Of a DNA stretch of 40,450 nucleotides, positions 1 to 11,993 are shown in pieces. The translations under genes and the position numbers were made by a program. The notes beneath the pieces are model-generated. The model did no database searches. It had not been told where the DNA came from and saw only the letters and a program-made list of their open reading frames with translations. Origin of the DNA: an uncultured Opitutia bacterium (GTDB lineage: Bacteria; Verrucomicrobiota; Verrucomicrobiia; Opitutales; UBA953); the NCBI GenBank assembly GCA_903925205.1, contig CAIYEN010000104.1:1-40450 (forward strand), written 5' to 3'. The first letter of the stretch is position 1; every line of letters begins with the position of its first letter.

Positions 1-41
1 CTGTGACTTCAAGAGCTGGGATGAAGTGATGGGGGGGAAGT

Positions 42-197
42 AGAGTACCGAGTACAGATTACGGAGTACAGATTACTGAAGCGAATTACAGAGTACGGAG
101 TACTGAAAGTTCAGCGCCGTTCCCTAAAAACAGAACTCAGGAGGATTATTCTTCTTCACGCCGTCTCGTCCCTCTGAACTCGGTACTCTGAACTCCA
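42..197. repeat. Degenerate 7-bp-period GAGTACN/GATTACN tract with an inverted copy (arms 42-58 and 173-189, 16/17 matching)
   Basis: Read directly: GAGTACC GAGTACA GATTACG GAGTACA GATTACT from 43; GAGTACG GAGTACT from 91; reverse-complement heptads TCTGAACTCGGTACTCTGAACTCC at 173-196. Confidence 0.75.
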
Positions 198-247: not shown

Positions 248-1534
248 ATGCAAGGCTTTGTCCTCGGATTTGATGTCGGTACCAGCGGGGTTCGCGCTTT
301 GGCCGTGGATGCGCGTGGGCAAGTCCTCGGGGTAGGTTCCGCGAAACTTCCACCGACATTGATCACGGGCACCCGCCGGGAACAGCATCCCGACGACTGG
401 TGGTACGGGCTACAAGCCGCTTGCCGAGCGCTCAGCAAACAAGTCGACCTATCCCAAGCCAGAGCCGTGGCGCTCGATGCGACTTCTGGCACAATTCTGC
501 CCGTCGATGAGTCTAGCAACCCGCTGGCCGCAGGGCGCATGTATGACGACGCCGATACCGGTGAACTGCCGTCCAAGATTGCCGCACTGGCACCGCAAGA
601 AAGCGCTGCGCACGGGGCCACCTCACCCGCCGCACGTGCCTTGGACTGGCTTGAGCTGTCCAATCTTCACTGCATCTTACACCAAGCCGATTGGCTGAAC
701 CGAAAACTCGGCTCGGCCGATTTTATCACCGACGAAAACAACGCGCTCAAAACCGGCTACGACCCGATCGCACGAGCTTGGCCGGCCTGGCTAGAATCCC
801 TTGGCCTACCGCATGCTCGCCTTCCCAAAGTCGTCCCAGTCGGGACCCCTATCGGCAAGATCGACGCCATCGCCGCAAGTTTTCTCGGCCTCCCCGCGGG
901 GATCACGCTGGCCGCTGGCACGACCGATGGTTGCGCCACCTTCCTCGCCAGTGGTGCCAGCCGCATCGGCGAAGGCGCGACGGCCCTCGGCTCGACCCTC
1001 GTCCTGAAACTGCTCAGCGACCGCCCCATCTTTGCCCCGCAATACGGCATCTACAGCCATCGTATCGGCGACCAATGGCTGGCCGGCGGCGCGTCCAATT
1101 GCGGCGGGAAAACCCTGTCGGCACTATTCTCCGATGAAGAGGTCGTCGCTTTATCCGCCACGCTCGATATCGGTAAGCCTACGGGGCTCGACTACTACCC
1201 CTTACCCAGCAAGGGCGAACGCTTCCCCCTAGCCGATGCCCAACTGGCCCCACGCCTGACCCCACGTCCGACCGACGACGCCGTCTTCCTCCAAGGAATC
1301 CTCGAAGGCTTCGCCACCGTCGAAAAGCTCGGCTACCGCCGACTCACCGAACTCGGCGGGCCAAAGCTGATCGCGGTGCGTCACGCCGGTGGCGGCGCTC
1401 GCAACGCGGCTTGGATGAAACTCCGGGCCCAAGAACTCGCCGTGCCGCAGACTGCCGCTTGGAGCGAAGAAGCCGCCGCCGGCGCTGCCCGCTTGGCCTG
1501 GCGCGCCCTTGGCCACGAACTCAAATTAGCATGA
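248..1534 (+). CDS. FGGY-family carbohydrate kinase
   Basis: N-terminal GFDVGTSGVRALAVD phosphate-binding motif and C-terminal AGGGARNAAWMKLRAQEL typical of FGGY sugar kinases. Confidence 0.88.
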   Translation: MQGFVLGFDVGTSGVRALAVDARGQVLGVGSAKLPPTLITGTRREQHPDDWWYGLQAACRALSKQVDLSQARAVALDATSGTILPVDESSNPLAAGRMYDDADTGELPSKIAALAPQESAAHGATSPAARALDWLELSNLHCILHQADWLNRKLGSADFITDENNALKTGYDPIARAWPAWLESLGLPHARLPKVVPVGTPIGKIDAIAASFLGLPAGITLAAGTTDGCATFLASGASRIGEGATALGSTLVLKLLSDRPIFAPQYGIYSHRIGDQWLAGGASNCGGKTLSALFSDEEVVALSATLDIGKPTGLDYYPLPSKGERFPLADAQLAPRLTPRPTDDAVFLQGILEGFATVEKLGYRRLTELGGPKLIAVRHAGGGARNAAWMKLRAQELAVPQTAAWSEEAAAGAARLAWRALGHELKLA

Positions 1535-4271: not shown

Positions 4272-7200
4272 ATGCGTTCTTCCCTGCGCTCGTTCACCCT
4301 GCTGGCCAGCCTCTTGGCCAGTACCCTCACCGCCTTCGCCGAGGCGAAGCTTACACTCCAAGACGGCGACCGCGTGCTGCTCATCGGCGATGTCCTCATG
4401 GAGCGCGAAAATAACTTCGGCTACCTCGAGACCAAGATGCGCCGCGAGTTCCCTGGGCGCAATTTCGCCGTCCGCAACCTCGGCTACAGCGGCGACAGCC
4501 CGTTGGGCGCTTCGCGCGCCAGCTTTGATCCCGTCGCCAAGGGCGTCGACAGCCTCAAGGAACAGCTCGCCGTCGTGAAGCCGACCGTCGCCATCCTTGG
4601 GTACGGCATGGCCGCTAGTTTGGACGAACTGACGTACCGCACGAACGACCCGGTGCTTAATCCCGACCCAGCACGTTACGGCATCGACCACAGCCCAGCC
4701 AAATTCCGCCGCGAGCTACTGCAGCTCATGGACCTCATCACCGCGGCGAGCCCCGGCGGCAAGGTGCGCTTCGTCTTCGTCGGTCCGATCAAGCATGAAG
4801 ACCTCCGCGCTGCCCGTCCCGGCTTGCCGAATCCCGCCGAACACAACGCCATCTTGGCCGAGTACGAAAAGGTCCTGCGCGAACTCGCGGCGGAAAAGCA
4901 GGCGCCGTTCGTCGCCGCCGAATGGCAACAAACCGCGGGCATCAAACTCTCACAAGGCACCGACAATGGGGTCCACCTGAACGCCCGCGGTTACCGCGCT
5001 TTGGCCACCAGCTTCGCCCAGCAGTTAGGTTGGAAGGCCGACGCCGCCCAGTGGGATACTGAGGACGCCGCCCAAGCTTCCCTCCGCGAAGCGATTCTCC
5101 GCAAGAACGCCCTCTTCTTCCACCGTAGCCGCCCGGCCAACTATACCTACATCTTCGGCTTCCGTCGGGGCGAACAAGGCCGCAACGCCGTCGAAATCCC
5201 GAAGTTCGACCCGCTCGTCGACAAGGCCGAAGCCAATGCCATCGGTATCTCCGCCGGCAAGCCCAGCACGCTGCCGCCCGAACCCAAGTCGGAAACCCAG
5301 CTCAAGCAACTCCCGCCGCTCCCGCGGCCGGACTTCAAACTCGAGCCTGGCCTGGAAATCACCCTCTTCGCCGAAAACCCGCTGCTCGAAAAGCCCGTGC
5401 ATATGAACTGGGACACCCGTGGCCGCCTTTGGGTCGCGACTTCCAATACCTACCCGCAGGTCAACCCGGACGACCTCGGGGCGCAGATGGAAAACAATGC
5501 CGCCAAGTTCGGCCCCTCGACCGGCAACGACAAGATCATCCTCTTGGAAGACACGAACAAGGACGGCGTCGCCGAATCCTCCCGTATCATCGCGGACAAG
5601 CTGCTCATTCCTGCCGGCGTCGCTCCGGATAACCGTGGCGGTTGCTACGTTGGCGCCAGCACCGAACTCTTACACCTGACCAAGCCCGGTGCCGACGGCC
5701 TCCTCAGCGACCGCCGCATCGTGTTCAGCGGCTTCGGCACCGAAGACACCCACCACATCATCCATGCCCTCCATTGGGGCGTCGATGGGCGCATGTACTT
5801 CCACCAGACAATCTATATCCACTCCCACATCGAAACCCCGTGGGGCTTGATCCGCGCGAACTCGGGCGTGGCCTTCGCTTACGACCCTGACCGCGAACGC
5901 CTCGAGGTACACTCGAAGGGCCTCGTCAACGCTTGGGGGCAACAAGAAGACCTCGCGGGCCAAACGTTCCTCACCTCCGGCGCGGACGGCAATGGCATCA
6001 GCTGGGGCTTCCCCGGCGCCGTTCTCCCGCCCTCGGAAGGTGCCCGCCGCACGATCAGCAGCATCAGCCCAGGTTCTTACCCGAAGTTCTGTGGCCTCGA
6101 AATCGTCCAAAGCCCTCTGTTCGGCGCCGAGTGGCAAGGCAACGCCATCACGAACGACTTCCGGGCCCACCGCATCGTTCGCTTCGCGTTCAATGACTTC
6201 ACCGCCGATGCCAAAGCCAAGTCGGGCTACATCACCAAGGCCCAGCCGGACGTCGTCCGCACGAGCGATGCCTCGTTCCGTCCGATTGGCGTCTCCATGG
6301 GGCCGGACGGCGGCCTCTACGTCGCCGACTGGACGAACCCAATTATCAACCACGGCGAAGTCGATTTCCGTGACCCGCGCCGCGACAAGCAGCACGGCCG
6401 CATCTGGCGCATCGCGCCGACGGGCAGCAAGCCGCTCGCTTGGGAACCCCTCGTTGGCCAGAAGCCAGCCGCCCTCCTTGCGAAGCTGACCTCGGCGAAC
6501 CGTTGGGAATTCGAACAAGCCCGTCGCGAACTATTGCTGCTCGATAACGCCGCACTCCAAAAAGCCCTGAACGGCTGGGCCAAGGACGAAGTTAGTCGAC
6601 GCCAGGCCGCGTGGTTGCTCAGCGGACGCACCGACAGCACCACCGAATTGCTAGCCATGCTGAAGAGCCCCGATGCCATCACCGTGCAAGTCGCCTTGCG
6701 CGAACTCGGGAAAGCCCATCGCTTGGTGCAACCCAGCGATGTACCCGCGCTAGCGGCGACGCTCAAGCATGCCAATCCGCGCGTCCAGCTGGAGGCCTAC
6801 CGCGCCTTGGCGCGCGTCGGCACTTTTGCCGCCGCCGATGCGGTCCTCGACCAACTCCCCCAAAACCCCGAAGACAGCTTCCTGGACTTCGCTGCTTGGA
6901 CGAGCGTCAATGAGGTCGCACAGACCTGGCTCAGCAGCGTGGTGGCGACGCCCGCCCTACTGAACGGCCGTGAAGCCAAGCTGGACCAACTCGTGAAAAC
7001 CGCTGACCCCGTGGTGAGTGGCCCGCACATCCAAGCCTTATTCAAGGGCCGTACGATTGATGCGGCGGGCTCAGGCCCCTGGATCGAACTCATTGGCAAG
7101 GCCGGCGGGGAAGCCGAGCTGACCCAACTCTTCGGCCTGCTGACGAAAGCGGATGCCCTGCAACCCGCCGCGCGTGTGCGTGCCGCCGGTGCGCTCGTCG

Positions 7201-8585
7201 ACGCGGCCCTCGCCCGTAACGCCCGGCCGGCCGGCGACCTCGCCGCCCTCGGTGCATTATTCCAATCCGACAACCGTGATTTGCGCCTCGCCGCCCTTCG
7301 CCTCAGCGGATCCTGGAAACTCGTGGCCTCGGTGCCGGAAATCGCCAAGCTCGCCGGTCAGGAAAAGGATGTCGCGGCCCGTGACTTTGCCTTCAAAGCC
7401 TTGCGCGACATTGGTCAAGCAGCCTCCGTCAACGCACTGAAGGCACTCTCCGCTGACACGCAGCCCCTCTCCGTCCGTCGCGGCGCGCTCATCGGCCTGT
7501 CCGTCCATGCCCCCGCAGAAGCCCTCAAGATTCTCCCGAGCGTGTTCGCGCAACTTAAGAAGAACGAGGCGGTGGCGACCTGGCAGGAACTCTTTACCAA
7601 CGCCGCGTTTTCCACTCGTCTGGCCAAGGCCTTCCCGAAGGACCTAACGCCCGAAACCTATGCCGCGGCGCTCCAGGCCGCCAAGGGCTCTGGGCGCACG
7701 GGCAAGGCTTTAGTCGACGTCCTCACCCCGCTCACCGGCGTCAAGGCCGGCACGCGTGACTATGCCGCCGAAGTTAATGGGATGGTCGCCGCCCTCAAGC
7801 GCGGCGCCGACCCGGTGGAAGGTGAAATCGTCTACCGCAAGAACGGCTGCGCCCTCTGTCACGCCATCGGCGGCGCCGGTGGCAAGCTAGGCCCAGACCT
7901 CTCGAGCATCGGTGCCAGCGCCCCCATCGACTACATCGTCGAGAGCGTGCTCAACCCAGCGGCGAAGGTGAAGGAAGGTTATCACGGCTTTGCCTTTACC
8001 ATGAAGGACGGCAGCGTCCTGACTGGTATCCCCGCCCGCGAAACGACGAGCGACATCATCATCCGCCCGGGCCCCGGCGTGGAACTCCCGGTCAGCAAGG
8101 CTAACCTCGTGAAGCGCGAAAACATCGGTAGCCTCATGCCGGCCGGCTTGGTGGATGGCCTCGACTTCGTCCCGAAGCGCAGCCTCTTCGCCTTCCTCGG
8201 AGAAATCGGCAAGCCGGGTCCGTTCGACACCAGCAAGAACAACGTCGCCCGCGCGTGGATCTTCCAGGACCAACCTCCGGGCGCCTTGGCCAAGTCGGGT
8301 GCCCCCGCGACCATCTACGCACTGATTGGCGGGCAACTCCTCAAGGAATTCAACCCTGGCCGACTGTACGCGGAAGCCCGCTTCACCGCCTCAGCCCCGA
8401 CCGCCAAGCCGCTCCTCCTTACCGGCGTGAAGGCCGCTTGGATCGACGGCAAGCCCCTCGAACTCAAGGATGGTAAGGCTGCCGTGGTGGTCGCCGCCGG
8501 CAATCATTCGCTCTTCGTCGAACCCGACCTCAACGCGCCCTACTTCAAGGCGCAGTGGGATGACGTCACCTTCCTCGGCGACTAA
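4272..8585 (+). CDS. SGNH-hydrolase-like domain + PVC-type membrane-bound dehydrogenase/beta-propeller + HEAT-like repeats + c-type cytochrome domain
   Basis: Signal peptide; RNLGYSGD and NGVHLNARGYR SGNH-like blocks; propeller segment with ADWTNPIINHGEVDFRDPRRDKQHGRIWR; helical repeats; CALCH heme motif followed by GPDLSSIG. Confidence 0.87.
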   Translation: MRSSLRSFTLLASLLASTLTAFAEAKLTLQDGDRVLLIGDVLMERENNFGYLETKMRREFPGRNFAVRNLGYSGDSPLGASRASFDPVAKGVDSLKEQLAVVKPTVAILGYGMAASLDELTYRTNDPVLNPDPARYGIDHSPAKFRRELLQLMDLITAASPGGKVRFVFVGPIKHEDLRAARPGLPNPAEHNAILAEYEKVLRELAAEKQAPFVAAEWQQTAGIKLSQGTDNGVHLNARGYRALATSFAQQLGWKADAAQWDTEDAAQASLREAILRKNALFFHRSRPANYTYIFGFRRGEQGRNAVEIPKFDPLVDKAEANAIGISAGKPSTLPPEPKSETQLKQLPPLPRPDFKLEPGLEITLFAENPLLEKPVHMNWDTRGRLWVATSNTYPQVNPDDLGAQMENNAAKFGPSTGNDKIILLEDTNKDGVAESSRIIADKLLIPAGVAPDNRGGCYVGASTELLHLTKPGADGLLSDRRIVFSGFGTEDTHHIIHALHWGVDGRMYFHQTIYIHSHIETPWGLIRANSGVAFAYDPDRERLEVHSKGLVNAWGQQEDLAGQTFLTSGADGNGISWGFPGAVLPPSEGARRTISSISPGSYPKFCGLEIVQSPLFGAEWQGNAITNDFRAHRIVRFAFNDFTADAKAKSGYITKAQPDVVRTSDASFRPIGVSMGPDGGLYVADWTNPIINHGEVDFRDPRRDKQHGRIWRIAPTGSKPLAWEPLVGQKPAALLAKLTSANRWEFEQARRELLLLDNAALQKALNGWAKDEVSRRQAAWLLSGRTDSTTELLAMLKSPDAITVQVALRELGKAHRLVQPSDVPALAATLKHANPRVQLEAYRALARVGTFAAADAVLDQLPQNPEDSFLDFAAWTSVNEVAQTWLSSVVATPALLNGREAKLDQLVKTADPVVSGPHIQALFKGRTIDAAGSGPWIELIGKAGGEAELTQLFGLLTKADALQPAARVRAAGALVDAALARNARPAGDLAALGALFQSDNRDLRLAALRLSGSWKLVASVPEIAKLAGQEKDVAARDFAFKALRDIGQAASVNALKALSADTQPLSVRRGALIGLSVHAPAEALKILPSVFAQLKKNEAVATWQELFTNAAFSTRLAKAFPKDLTPETYAAALQAAKGSGRTGKALVDVLTPLTGVKAGTRDYAAEVNGMVAALKRGADPVEGEIVYRKNGCALCHAIGGAGGKLGPDLSSIGASAPIDYIVESVLNPAAKVKEGYHGFAFTMKDGSVLTGIPARETTSDIIIRPGPGVELPVSKANLVKRENIGSLMPAGLVDGLDFVPKRSLFAFLGEIGKPGPFDTSKNNVARAWIFQDQPPGALAKSGAPATIYALIGGQLLKEFNPGRLYAEARFTASAPTAKPLLLTGVKAAWIDGKPLELKDGKAAVVVAAGNHSLFVEPDLNAPYFKAQWDDVTFLGD

Positions 8586-8657: not shown

Positions 8658-11600
8658 TTAGAAGCGGCAGGTGTAGTTCAGCTTGAGGTCGGAAGCAGAC
8701 TTCACGCCATTACCGGAACGGACTTCATACGAGAAGCCCGCGGAACTGGACTCGCTCAAGCTGACCTTCAGGTTGAGGCCACCACGGAACTGATCCTTAC
8801 CGAAGCCGTAGGTGTTGACCGTGAAGGCGGTGGCCGAAGCGGCATCTGCGAAGCTCGCAGTGATTCCGTTGGTGCCATTGCCAAGGTCGTGCTCGTAGGC
8901 GGCGGAAAGCCCCAGCGCCAACTTATCCGACAACTTGTAGGTGAACTCCGTGCCGACTTCGACGAGGGACAAAGCCTGGGAGAAGGCGGCAACATTCAAG
9001 TTAGCACCCGTCCCCGTCTCCGCGATCGTATCCATCGTGCCCTTATTGCGGCTGAGACCGACGAAGGGCGTGAAGCCCGCCAGAGGTGCCAACGACAGGC
9101 GAGCCATGACGGAAGAGCCACCCAACTTGGCATTACTGAAGGCCTGACCCGAGCGAACGCCCGAGACCTTCTCAACGCCCGAGGTGAAGCCAAGGTCCAA
9201 GCGGGCCGCGCCAAAGTCCGTCCCGAAGCCCAGGCCCAAGGTTTGGCCCGTCATCTTTGAGGCAAACCCGCTAGCGGCCACATTGCCATGGTCCGTAGCG
9301 ACCATGATCGAGACCTTGCTGTTCTGGCCCAGGCCATGCGTCGCGAGCGCGTAGGTCGAATTCACGTCGAATTCCCCATTCAGGCTGGTCGGCGAAGCCT
9401 TGGCCGTGGCCTTGGAGGCATCATAACCCAGCTGGTAGGTCCAGACATCGCCCGCCGGAGCTGCCGCCAGCAAGGAGCGCGCAAGGGAGTGGGCATTGCG
9501 GGCACCCATCTGAGCGACCGTGCCGTAGGACTCAGGCGAGAGCGCATCCAGGGCCGCCCCGACGTCCGCAGACAAGAGCACACCCGCGGCAGCCGCCCCG
9601 ACATCGGTCGCAGCGAGGTAAGCCTTCGCCGTCGAGGTCGTCGAACCAGCGCCATTCTTGATCACCGTACCGTTGGTGACGCCATCAGCCCAGAGAGCCG
9701 CCCCGACCGCGACGCGATTGGCGACCGCGGTGTCATAATCCGCAAAGGTCTGGGTTTCCGTTAGGCCCGTGCCGAAGAGCGTGCCCGTGGAGGCCTGATA
9801 AAGAACCTGCGCCGCCTGGGTATTACGGTCGAGCGTACCGAAAGCACCAGCATAGGTGCCGGCGATGATGGCGCGGAAACTCTGACCACGAGCCGGATCA
9901 AAGCCGTTGAACTTGGTCACTCGCAGCGTGGAAGTCGCATTGGCCGTGAAGGTACCGGAGACATTGAGTTGGTCGAAGCCGGCCGGATTGACGCCGGCGG
10001 CGGTGCCGCCCACTTCGATGTCCAAGACGGCATTTTCCGTGTAGTTGCCGGTGATGGTCAAGATGCCCGGCGAATTGCCCGGAGAGACCGTGCCGAAGTT
10101 GGTAACGTTACCGTTGATACGACCCGAACCCTTGAGGGTACCGCCATTGAAGACGGTCACGCTCGGAGAATTTACCGTACCATTGATGGTCAAGATACCC
10201 GCCGAAACGTTAGTGTTACCGGAGTAGGTATTGATGCCCGTGAGGATGGCTTCGCCCGAACCAACCTTCCAGAGCTGACCATTACCGGAAATCGAACCGG
10301 ACAACGTGGTCGTGCCGGTCGTATCGATGACCCCACCCGTACCACTCAAGGTGATGGCGTTCGAGATAGTCGAAATGCCCGAAGCACTCAGGGTGGCACC
10401 GTCCAAGGTGTAGATCCCGTTCGTCAGAACCGGGACGCTGCTCTTGCTATTGATGGCGATCAGCTGACCCCCTTCAAAGAGGCCGAAGGTGTCGGTACCC
10501 GAAACCAGCGCATGATTCTGCAGGGCGATCAAGAACCACTTGGTGCCATCGTTGATGAGCGTGGAGATATCAATGATACCCGAGGTTTCTTCATCGATGG
10601 TACGGAAGTCGGCACCGCCCGTTAAGAAACGCGTGCGATCCGACTCAAGAATCTGCAGGGCGCTGGCTGCAGGGTTAGCGGCGTTCGGGTCAATGACCCA
10701 GTGCTTCGCGATGTAGGCTACGTTACCCGGGTCTTCCTGGACGTAGATCAGGCCGTCGTTGCCGACGGTCAGGTTGTCGAACGAGCGGGCGACATCGCCA
10801 TCGCGGCCACGCAAGCTGGCGCTATCAACGATGAGCGAGATGGCACCACCCTGGGTGAAGTCGCTCGTATTGCCGAAGACCAACTTGTAGAGACGCGACG
10901 TCTGGGTCACACCAACCGTGCCACCGGTCGGAATAATGGAAGCACCTGTGGTGTTGAAAACGAAGGTCGAGGCGTTGAGCCAAGCGCCGTCTTCCGGACG
11001 GGCGAATTCGGTGACACCCGCGGTCGTCGAGGCGGTCTGGAAAGTCGCCCCAGGAGTCGTGCCCCAATTCGACGTCGAGAAGGTCGGAGCAACCAAGGCG
11101 AACGTGCCGTTAATGGCACCAGCGGATTCGCGGGTGACTGCACCGTTCGCATAGTTCGCACCACCGTTGGTGACCTTGACGCCATAAAGCACGCCGTTGG
11201 TCAAACCCGCCATGTCGATTGCCGTACCGGCGTTGGACTTGTTGCCGACCCAGAGGTACACTTGGCCCGGGGTCGAGTCATCGGTACCCGCCACAATCGT
11301 CTTATTGGCCGCGGTGCCCGTCAGGAAAGGGTTCGCGAGCAAATTCTCGATCGAGTAGCGACCCAAGTGAGGGAGCTCATAAACCTTCCCCATGTCAGTG
11401 CCCGTCGCCACCCAGGCAAACCCCCGACCTTCGTTGCCGGTCTCTTCGCCGTTGAGGAAGATGCGGCCATTGTAGCCCAGACCCGTGGTTGCGTTATAGA
11501 AGGCGCTCACCGGAGCAAGGTCAGCCGAGCAAAGGCGTCCGATCTGCGTTGTGGTGCCTGCGGACCACGTGCTGGTGGTTGCGTTCCAGAGGTAAAGGTT

Positions 11601-11993
11601 ATTGGCCGAGGAAAGGAAATCTGTGCCCGAGAGGACGCGCCAGGTGCTCTTGTCGATGACCCAACTCGAAACGAATGCGCCAGTCGAACCATGGGCACGG
11701 ACGATACCGTTGGTCTGCCCCAGCTCCTGATTGACCAACAAGGTGAACGTGCCGTCGTTATTATCAAAGGCTCCCATACCGTCGGGAACTCCAACCATGC
11801 GATAGCCATTCAAGGCAGCATCGCCGGTCGTCAATACCGAGAGGGCCGACCAATTCGGCGCCATCACAGTGACGTAAGGCGACTGCGAGCTGGACGGGCC
11901 CGTAGAGGTCGTGGGGAGGGCAAAGGCTGCGGTGGAGAACGCCGCAGCAACGAGGAACGATCGGGATAGGTGGTGCATGGAGGAGGTTCGCAT
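8658..11993 (-). CDS. PhoX-like (DUF839) domain fused to an autotransporter: PATR-type beta-strand repeat and C-terminal autotransporter beta-domain
   Basis: Signal peptide; GEETGNEGRGFAW, DDSTPGQVYLWVG, EFARPEDGAWL, LIYVQEDPGN motifs; GSGEAILTGINTYSGNTNVSAGILTINGT passenger repeat; about 280-aa beta-domain ending in Phe (LNYTCRF). Confidence 0.85.
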   Translation of the reverse strand: MRTSSMHHLSRSFLVAAAFSTAAFALPTTSTGPSSSQSPYVTVMAPNWSALSVLTTGDAALNGYRMVGVPDGMGAFDNNDGTFTLLVNQELGQTNGIVRAHGSTGAFVSSWVIDKSTWRVLSGTDFLSSANNLYLWNATTSTWSAGTTTQIGRLCSADLAPVSAFYNATTGLGYNGRIFLNGEETGNEGRGFAWVATGTDMGKVYELPHLGRYSIENLLANPFLTGTAANKTIVAGTDDSTPGQVYLWVGNKSNAGTAIDMAGLTNGVLYGVKVTNGGANYANGAVTRESAGAINGTFALVAPTFSTSNWGTTPGATFQTASTTAGVTEFARPEDGAWLNASTFVFNTTGASIIPTGGTVGVTQTSRLYKLVFGNTSDFTQGGAISLIVDSASLRGRDGDVARSFDNLTVGNDGLIYVQEDPGNVAYIAKHWVIDPNAANPAASALQILESDRTRFLTGGADFRTIDEETSGIIDISTLINDGTKWFLIALQNHALVSGTDTFGLFEGGQLIAINSKSSVPVLTNGIYTLDGATLSASGISTISNAITLSGTGGVIDTTGTTTLSGSISGNGQLWKVGSGEAILTGINTYSGNTNVSAGILTINGTVNSPSVTVFNGGTLKGSGRINGNVTNFGTVSPGNSPGILTITGNYTENAVLDIEVGGTAAGVNPAGFDQLNVSGTFTANATSTLRVTKFNGFDPARGQSFRAIIAGTYAGAFGTLDRNTQAAQVLYQASTGTLFGTGLTETQTFADYDTAVANRVAVGAALWADGVTNGTVIKNGAGSTTSTAKAYLAATDVGAAAAGVLLSADVGAALDALSPESYGTVAQMGARNAHSLARSLLAAAPAGDVWTYQLGYDASKATAKASPTSLNGEFDVNSTYALATHGLGQNSKVSIMVATDHGNVAASGFASKMTGQTLGLGFGTDFGAARLDLGFTSGVEKVSGVRSGQAFSNAKLGGSSVMARLSLAPLAGFTPFVGLSRNKGTMDTIAETGTGANLNVAAFSQALSLVEVGTEFTYKLSDKLALGLSAAYEHDLGNGTNGITASFADAASATAFTVNTYGFGKDQFRGGLNLKVSLSESSSAGFSYEVRSGNGVKSASDLKLNYTCRF

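Follow-up and report, generated by a model that had tools for sequence, protein, structure and literature searches.

What is the block of tandem heptamers that occupies positions 42-197 of contig C104, between the stop codon of one gene and the start of an FGGY-family carbohydrate kinase gene? This contig, the window analysed here over its full length of 40,450 bases, is part of a 2.47 Mb draft genome of an uncultured Opitutia bacterium. Genes for IVP (23S rRNA intervening sequence protein, PF05635; TIGR02436 four helix bundle), also called S23, have short tandem repeats on either side as a pair of inverted arrays, and hairpins with the same arms but no gene occur scattered in genomes, so the window feature is most likely a solo copy resembling a miniature inverted-repeat transposable element (MITE). 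In full, we consider it likely that the feature belongs, as a solo copy without the gene, to a dispersed class of heptad-flanked IVP/S23 elements, with arms that would be bound by IVP and solo copies that would be moved in trans.

IVP genes are located between inverted arrays

All five PF05635 genes of the host genome lie between inverted short-tandem-repeat arrays, each with a unit of its own. The gene on contig C233 has GAGTAC arrays on its two sides, one the reverse complement of the other, and the arrays at the other four loci are based on GTGACAAG, GTTGACAA, GAGTCGGGA and GTGCAAAG. Arms were scored as the best alignment of the 350 bp upstream of a gene with the reverse complement of the 350 bp downstream. 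For 87 IVP loci, mostly from this genus (a lineage of the Opitutae, Verrucomicrobiota), the median score is 52, compared with 18 for the flanks of different loci and 18 for shuffled flanks; a score of at least 34 is reached at 85% of the loci vs 3.9% and 0%, respectively. The arrangement is specific to IVP genes, with inverted arms around only 3 of 185 control genes of 90-220 aa in two relatives, one of the three being itself an IVP gene. It also spreads over many phyla: among 77 IVP loci sampled from these, 62% score at least 30 vs 1.4% of mismatched flanks, so inverted arms characterise IVP genes in general.

The full-length elements, with a median of about 630 bp, consist of a left array of G-rich 7-8-mers, the IVP/S23/TIGR02436 gene and the same array in reverse complement. 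No transposase was seen in these elements, and about 630 bp that hold an IVP/S23 gene leave no room for one. Across 91 orthologous pairs, the IVP genes have a median dN/dS of 0.09, a sign of strong purifying selection.

Layout of the window copy

The window copy carries no IVP gene; the copy on C233 in the same genome, whose arm units are the heptads of the window's left arm, has one. The parts of the window copy and its flanks are as follows.

1-42, plus strand: 3' end of the upstream gene, with a TAG stop at 40-42, the stop codon at which the array starts; flank, outside the element
43-77, plus strand: left arm of five GAKTACN heptads (GAGTACC GAGTACA GATTACG GAGTACA GATTACT), preceded by (A)
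84-104, plus strand: second block of three degenerate heptads (AATTACA GAGTACG GAGTACT)
105-172, no strand: interior of the solo copy, a stretch of about 70 nt that has neither heptads nor an IVP gene
173-195, minus strand: right arm of reverse-complement heptads (GAGTTCA GAGTACC GAGTTCA), outer stem in the fold
248-1534, plus strand: FGGY-family carbohydrate kinase (Pfam FGGY_N and FGGY_C); downstream flank, outside the element

A sequence-only reading of this stretch had described degenerate GAGTACN heptads in the spacer and a reverse-complement pairing of the arms at 16/17 positions, and both are borne out. Heptads are evident on direct reading and to Tandem Repeats Finder (period 7, 5.0 copies, 42-76), and the inverted pair 42-58/173-189 is 17 nt long and 94% complementary (16/17), with the arms 114 nt apart. 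Heptad pairs of the form GAKTWCNGAKTWC with at most one mismatch number 9 in the window vs 1.28 expected; none of 100 shuffles reaches 9, which places the heptads above the shuffled expectation that the same reading had named as a possible refutation. Eight of the nine pairs fall in the spacer 5' of the kinase, as do the best two lag-7 segments in the whole 40 kb. The folding check proposed along with these claims showed that the 165-nt region folds more stably than dinucleotide shuffles (z -2.6 on the plus strand and -2.9 on the minus strand), with the inverted arms as the outer stem. The right arm is shorter than the left one, and its heptads are more degenerate.

The feature sits between two protein genes, outside any 23S rRNA helix, and an Rfam search of the window gave no match. 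The upstream gene is the same in relatives, and the interior (105-172) is partly conserved in three of these (G009, G017, G032). Bases 1-141 of the window are identical to the last 141 bases of contig C147, which carries the rest of the upstream gene; this overlap, of the assembly-graph kind, implies that the two contigs are adjacent and that the upstream gene continues in C147. The break between the two contigs falls within the repeat.

Dispersal and alleles at fixed sites

Three-heptad arrays GAKTACNGAKTACNGAKTAC occur at several further sites in the host genome, on both strands, where the reversed-pattern control was never found. Across the 55 genomes of the genus, GAKTACN arrays have matches in 14, with up to 82 per genome, and none in the other 41; the reversed pattern gives zero in all 55. 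The tract, for which the sequence-only reading had proposed a search of the host genome and its relatives, is accordingly neither unique nor unconserved. The genome-wide census is based on patterns and on 784 kb from two relatives. The arrays adjoin unrelated genes and are also found in spacers of convergent genes. The window feature resembles MITEs in being short, non-coding and multicopy, with terminal inverted repeats, and short tandemly repeated repetitive sequences in consisting of tandem intergenic heptamers present in many copies. A separate dispersed palindromic family (GGTAGGGGCGCGACTGCGTCGCGTC and variants) is present in the same intergenic islands as the heptad arrays (L028, L018, L014 and several sites on C1 of G016).

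Two syntenic sites, both of which show the presence/absence pattern that had been proposed for comparison, are informative. The spacer upstream of the kinase, 205 bp long in the window, was followed through the relatives with the kinase as the anchor. Five genomes have GAGTAC arms there and most others GCGGTTA arms; a few have other or mixed units, and G023, G002, G065, G029 and G001 lack an array altogether. The junction between nth and a thioesterase gene exists in empty, solo and filled forms. It is empty in G072, G021 and G004, with short stubs elsewhere; solo hairpins have either GATGACNG or GAGGACTG arms, two arm families; and the IVP-filled form has GAGTAC arms in either orientation, or TCGAGGGTAGA arms. 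In G016, an IVP-filled copy lies 2 kb from a solo that shares its arms. These alleles look like those of mobile elements that exist both in full length and as solos, and from them we infer the movement itself. At two nth loci (L222 and L224, in G000 and G023), the IVP segment is oppositely oriented between the same flanks, as if it had flipped between the arms or been inserted twice.

Arm anatomy and correspondence with the IVP clade

In the many-phyla set, period 7 predominates (34/48 left and 38/48 right arms), with period 8 next, and the length of period-7 arrays shows a sharp peak at 30-32 nt. Exactly five in-phase motifs are present in 54 of 101 many-phyla arms vs 15 of 199 other tandem arrays from random genomic windows, which peak at three. 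The dinucleotide that most often recurs in phase is RG (AG or GG). In 117 of 122 elements the G-rich arm is on the left; a hairpin is identical from both strands, so this bias means that the element has a fixed polarity. The window copy obeys it, its left arm being made of five heptads that start with G. Downstream of one IVP gene (L307, from Grimontia) lies an almost perfect tandem array of the heptamer TGGGTCC that extends over 268 nt, far beyond the usual 30 nt.

The arm unit follows the protein. Among non-syntenic pairs of IVP genes, arms are shared in 7 of 7 pairs with at least 80% amino acid identity, in 31% at 60-70%, in 3% at 40-50% and in none below 40%. With one representative for each of 26 syntenic groups, a Mantel test yields rho 0.30, which 10 of 5000 permutations reach. 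Each of the seven genomes carrying the CTGCTGGCATGGTGAAC-type IVP has at least 5 copies of the CTGCTGGCATGGTGAAC 17-mer, whereas this IVP type is absent from all 26 genomes with at most 2 copies (hand-calculated Fisher test about 1e-5, ignoring relatedness). All genomes in which the GAGTAC-type IVP was found (G000, G017, G023, G026, G032, G057 and G058) are rich in GAGTAC arrays. Arm unit and IVP clade correspond and, at the level of the compared sequences, the arms co-diverge with the protein.

Arms as probable binding arrays, and alternative explanations

Arms from different genomes resemble each other at least as much as the two arms of a single element do, and arm changes in five orthologous groups comprise 38 paired double changes vs 333 that alter pairing; base-pair covariation of the hairpin, tested in these five groups, was not found. 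Each arm thus keeps the family consensus independently, without covariation, as expected for an array recognised by a protein, and the arms are probably IVP binding arrays. This evidence bears on the main alternative, an RNA-stem element in which a transcript hairpin is processed by RNase III or ends transcription, as in the intervening sequences of 23S rRNA. The fold of the window region, with the arms as its outer stem, is as such an element would have it, and 23S rRNA intervening sequences with an S23 open reading frame (ORF) do have RNase III-cut terminal stems (PMC4990558). However, orthologous arms change mostly one-sidedly, pairing is no better kept within an element than between genomes, and a stem needs neither the unit period nor the five-motif length nor the G-rich polarity; the right arm is not followed by a T run either, unlike an intrinsic terminator. 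We therefore regard the RNA stem as unlikely. Local regulation, in which a heptad-reading protein would bind the array and the array would serve the FGGY kinase gene as its operator or RNA leader, would fit the position in the 205-bp spacer directly 5' of the kinase, where relatives have several arm families, but the five relatives without any array at this spacer, the swapping of units at the same spot, and the same arrays beside unrelated genes and even between convergent ones make it very unlikely.

Passive growth of tandem repeats by slipped-strand mispairing, with later chance inversion and tolerance by IVP genes, is most improbable: units are degenerate and copy number varies, and bacteria in general are over-rich in heptameric repeats (PMC4692102), but slippage leaves unexplained why inverted pairs surround one gene family at 62-85% of loci vs about 1-4%, as well as the five-motif mode, the fixed polarity and the clade-specific units common to non-syntenic copies. 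The least probable of the explanations weighed here is a repetitive extragenic palindromic (REP) sequence, or a REPIN (a hairpin formed by a REP pair), moved by a Y1 (TnpA_REP) transposase. Such repeats are likewise small, intergenic, dispersed and inverted, and Y1 domains are present in 34 of the 55 genomes, but four genomes with 13-55 array matches (G057, G058, G026, G023) have no Y1 match, and the arms are tandem heptads rather than short palindromes with GTAG/CGTC tags. As the mover, the Y1 transposase is disfavoured by its absence from several array-rich genomes, and a reverse transcriptase by its presence in just 1 of the 55 genomes, with no RVT_1 match in the host genome.

Of the two interpretations offered by the sequence-only reading, a mobile repeat of the REP/MITE type and a multi-site protein-binding array, the latter stands in that the arms behave like recognition arrays (the unit follows the IVP clade, the length is five motifs, covariation is lacking). 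The former survives in part: the repeat is dispersed and intergenic, with inverted arms and syntenic presence/absence; it is neither a strict REP, because arrays abound without a match to Y1 or to the REP-associated tyrosine transposase (RAYT), nor a classical MITE, because the partner carries an IVP/S23 four-helix-bundle gene and no transposase. As a whole, that interpretation is partly supported; the IVP link and the alternative units in the relatives' spacers lay outside the window's letters.

Several observations weigh against the solo-element interpretation. Fifteen percent of the genus loci and 38% of the many-phyla loci are under the arm threshold, although many of the latter still have one array. 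The motif count is less sharp within this genus (3-5) than in the many-phyla set, shared ancestry inflates the co-occurrence counts of IVP and arrays, and the conserved outer pairing is also compatible with an RNA stem. Neither a target-site duplication nor a signature of cut-and-paste movement could be established, empty sites having been found with flanks too diverged to call a duplication. Finally, in G009, G014, G020 and G021, which are rich in GAGTAC arrays, a matching IVP was not detected, which implies that solos outlive the IVP or move without it.

A possible mechanism

IVP matches PDB entry 2gsc, a crystal with five chains of one sequence, and has weak homology to Avd (NCBIfam Avd model, 25 bits). 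Avd is a pentamer. The relationship of the IVP family to the Avd protein of diversity-generating retroelements (DGRs) has been noted previously (PMC10053308). The approximately five RG motifs per arm and the five-fold ring make one pentameric IVP ring per arm a natural model, which we propose as a hypothesis. An IVP oligomer would bind the arms directly, reading an RG dinucleotide every 7-8 nt, in principle comparable to TRAP on tandem NAG triplets. Ends bound by IVP could then single out the element to be copied or inserted. Solos, which keep the ends, would be moved in trans by the matching IVP, in the way that a transposase moves MITEs. The cutting or copying enzyme, not encoded by the element, is presumably a host function; given that 54 of the 55 genomes lack a reverse transcriptase and several array-rich ones lack Y1, the catalytic step would come from the host or from something unrecognised. 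The window solo itself is probably a minor passive passenger behind a stop codon, where it is harmless.

A more sweeping scheme can be put forward tentatively, as one that we find possible but do not favour. IVP/S23 proteins would be pentameric rings that read five heptad-spaced RG motifs and, together with inverted arrays, would form a type of mobile element without nuclease, transposase or reverse transcriptase that hijacks host replication or repair; many reported intergenic heptamer repeats would be its solo ends, and the 23S rRNA intervening sequences a subset.

Relation to known systems

The closest known counterparts are the 23S rRNA intervening sequences of Coxiella and Leptospira, in which the same protein family is found between inverted termini. 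Such an intervening sequence, an S23 ORF between inverted ends, has been termed a selfish element, and in Coxiella two to three tandem GACAGAT heptamers, depending on the strain, precede S23p (PMC4990558). The elements described here differ in being intergenic, with heptad or octad arrays on both sides and dispersed gene-less copies. Of four 23S motifs scanned in 80 many-phyla loci, three had no match and the short helix-45 motif had two, both at a distance from the IVP gene, so the Coxiella paper is the sole source for heptads in rRNA intervening sequences.

The solved relative of IVP (2gsc) is XCC0516. XCC denotes X. campestris, so XCC0516 is a Xanthomonas protein; it is predicted to lie between inverted GGGAATC arrays. 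An S23p of X. campestris has been described (PMC4990558). Intergenic G-rich heptads, GGGAATC in Xanthomonas and GGGGA(T/C)T in Nostoc, have been reported; four units are commonest, and each Xanthomonas genome contains 70-75 inverted pairs in convergent orientation (PMC4692102). They were interpreted as G-quadruplex repeats, and the sections of that paper drawn on here make no IVP link (PMC4692102); the unit in the window is, in contrast, GAKTACN. The Xanthomonas repeats look like solo copies. In Beggiatoaceae and cyanobacteria, TAACTGA forms abundant intergenic heptamer sets of 2-6 copies, which were described as direct repeats, with one inverted case only and no IVP link (PMC4679880).

As in the REPIN/RAYT and MITE systems, solo copies with inverted arms accompany rarer full-length copies that encode a protein, but the full-length element here is without a transposase and no target duplication is demonstrated. 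Unlike DGRs, there is no reverse transcriptase in 54 of the 55 genomes and no variable target, and the likeness to Avd is a weak homology only.

Among open-licence PMC papers, no description of a link between PF05635/TIGR02436 and heptamer repeats was found. The class that contains the window feature is widespread, testable and without prior explanation. PF05635/TIGR02436 is a common bacterial family with a function so far unassigned, for which the linkage supplies a testable ligand, the array written beside each gene; because unit and protein diverge together, specificity is testable via array swaps between clades in vitro. Intergenic heptamer repeats, which have been reported piecemeal without explanation, gain a likely owner, and the 23S rRNA intervening sequences are placed in a wider class.

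Additional observations

Phage carriage would not explain the distribution, with just 21 IVP relatives among 2.9 million viral contigs. Some viral contigs (L363, L366, L388 and others) contain GAKTACN matches, several per contig and often 21 nt apart. Elsewhere in the window, positions 4272-8585 encode a DUF7133/HEAT/GDSL protein that also matches cytochrome c at a borderline level, and positions 8658-11993 encode a PATR autotransporter-type passenger protein.
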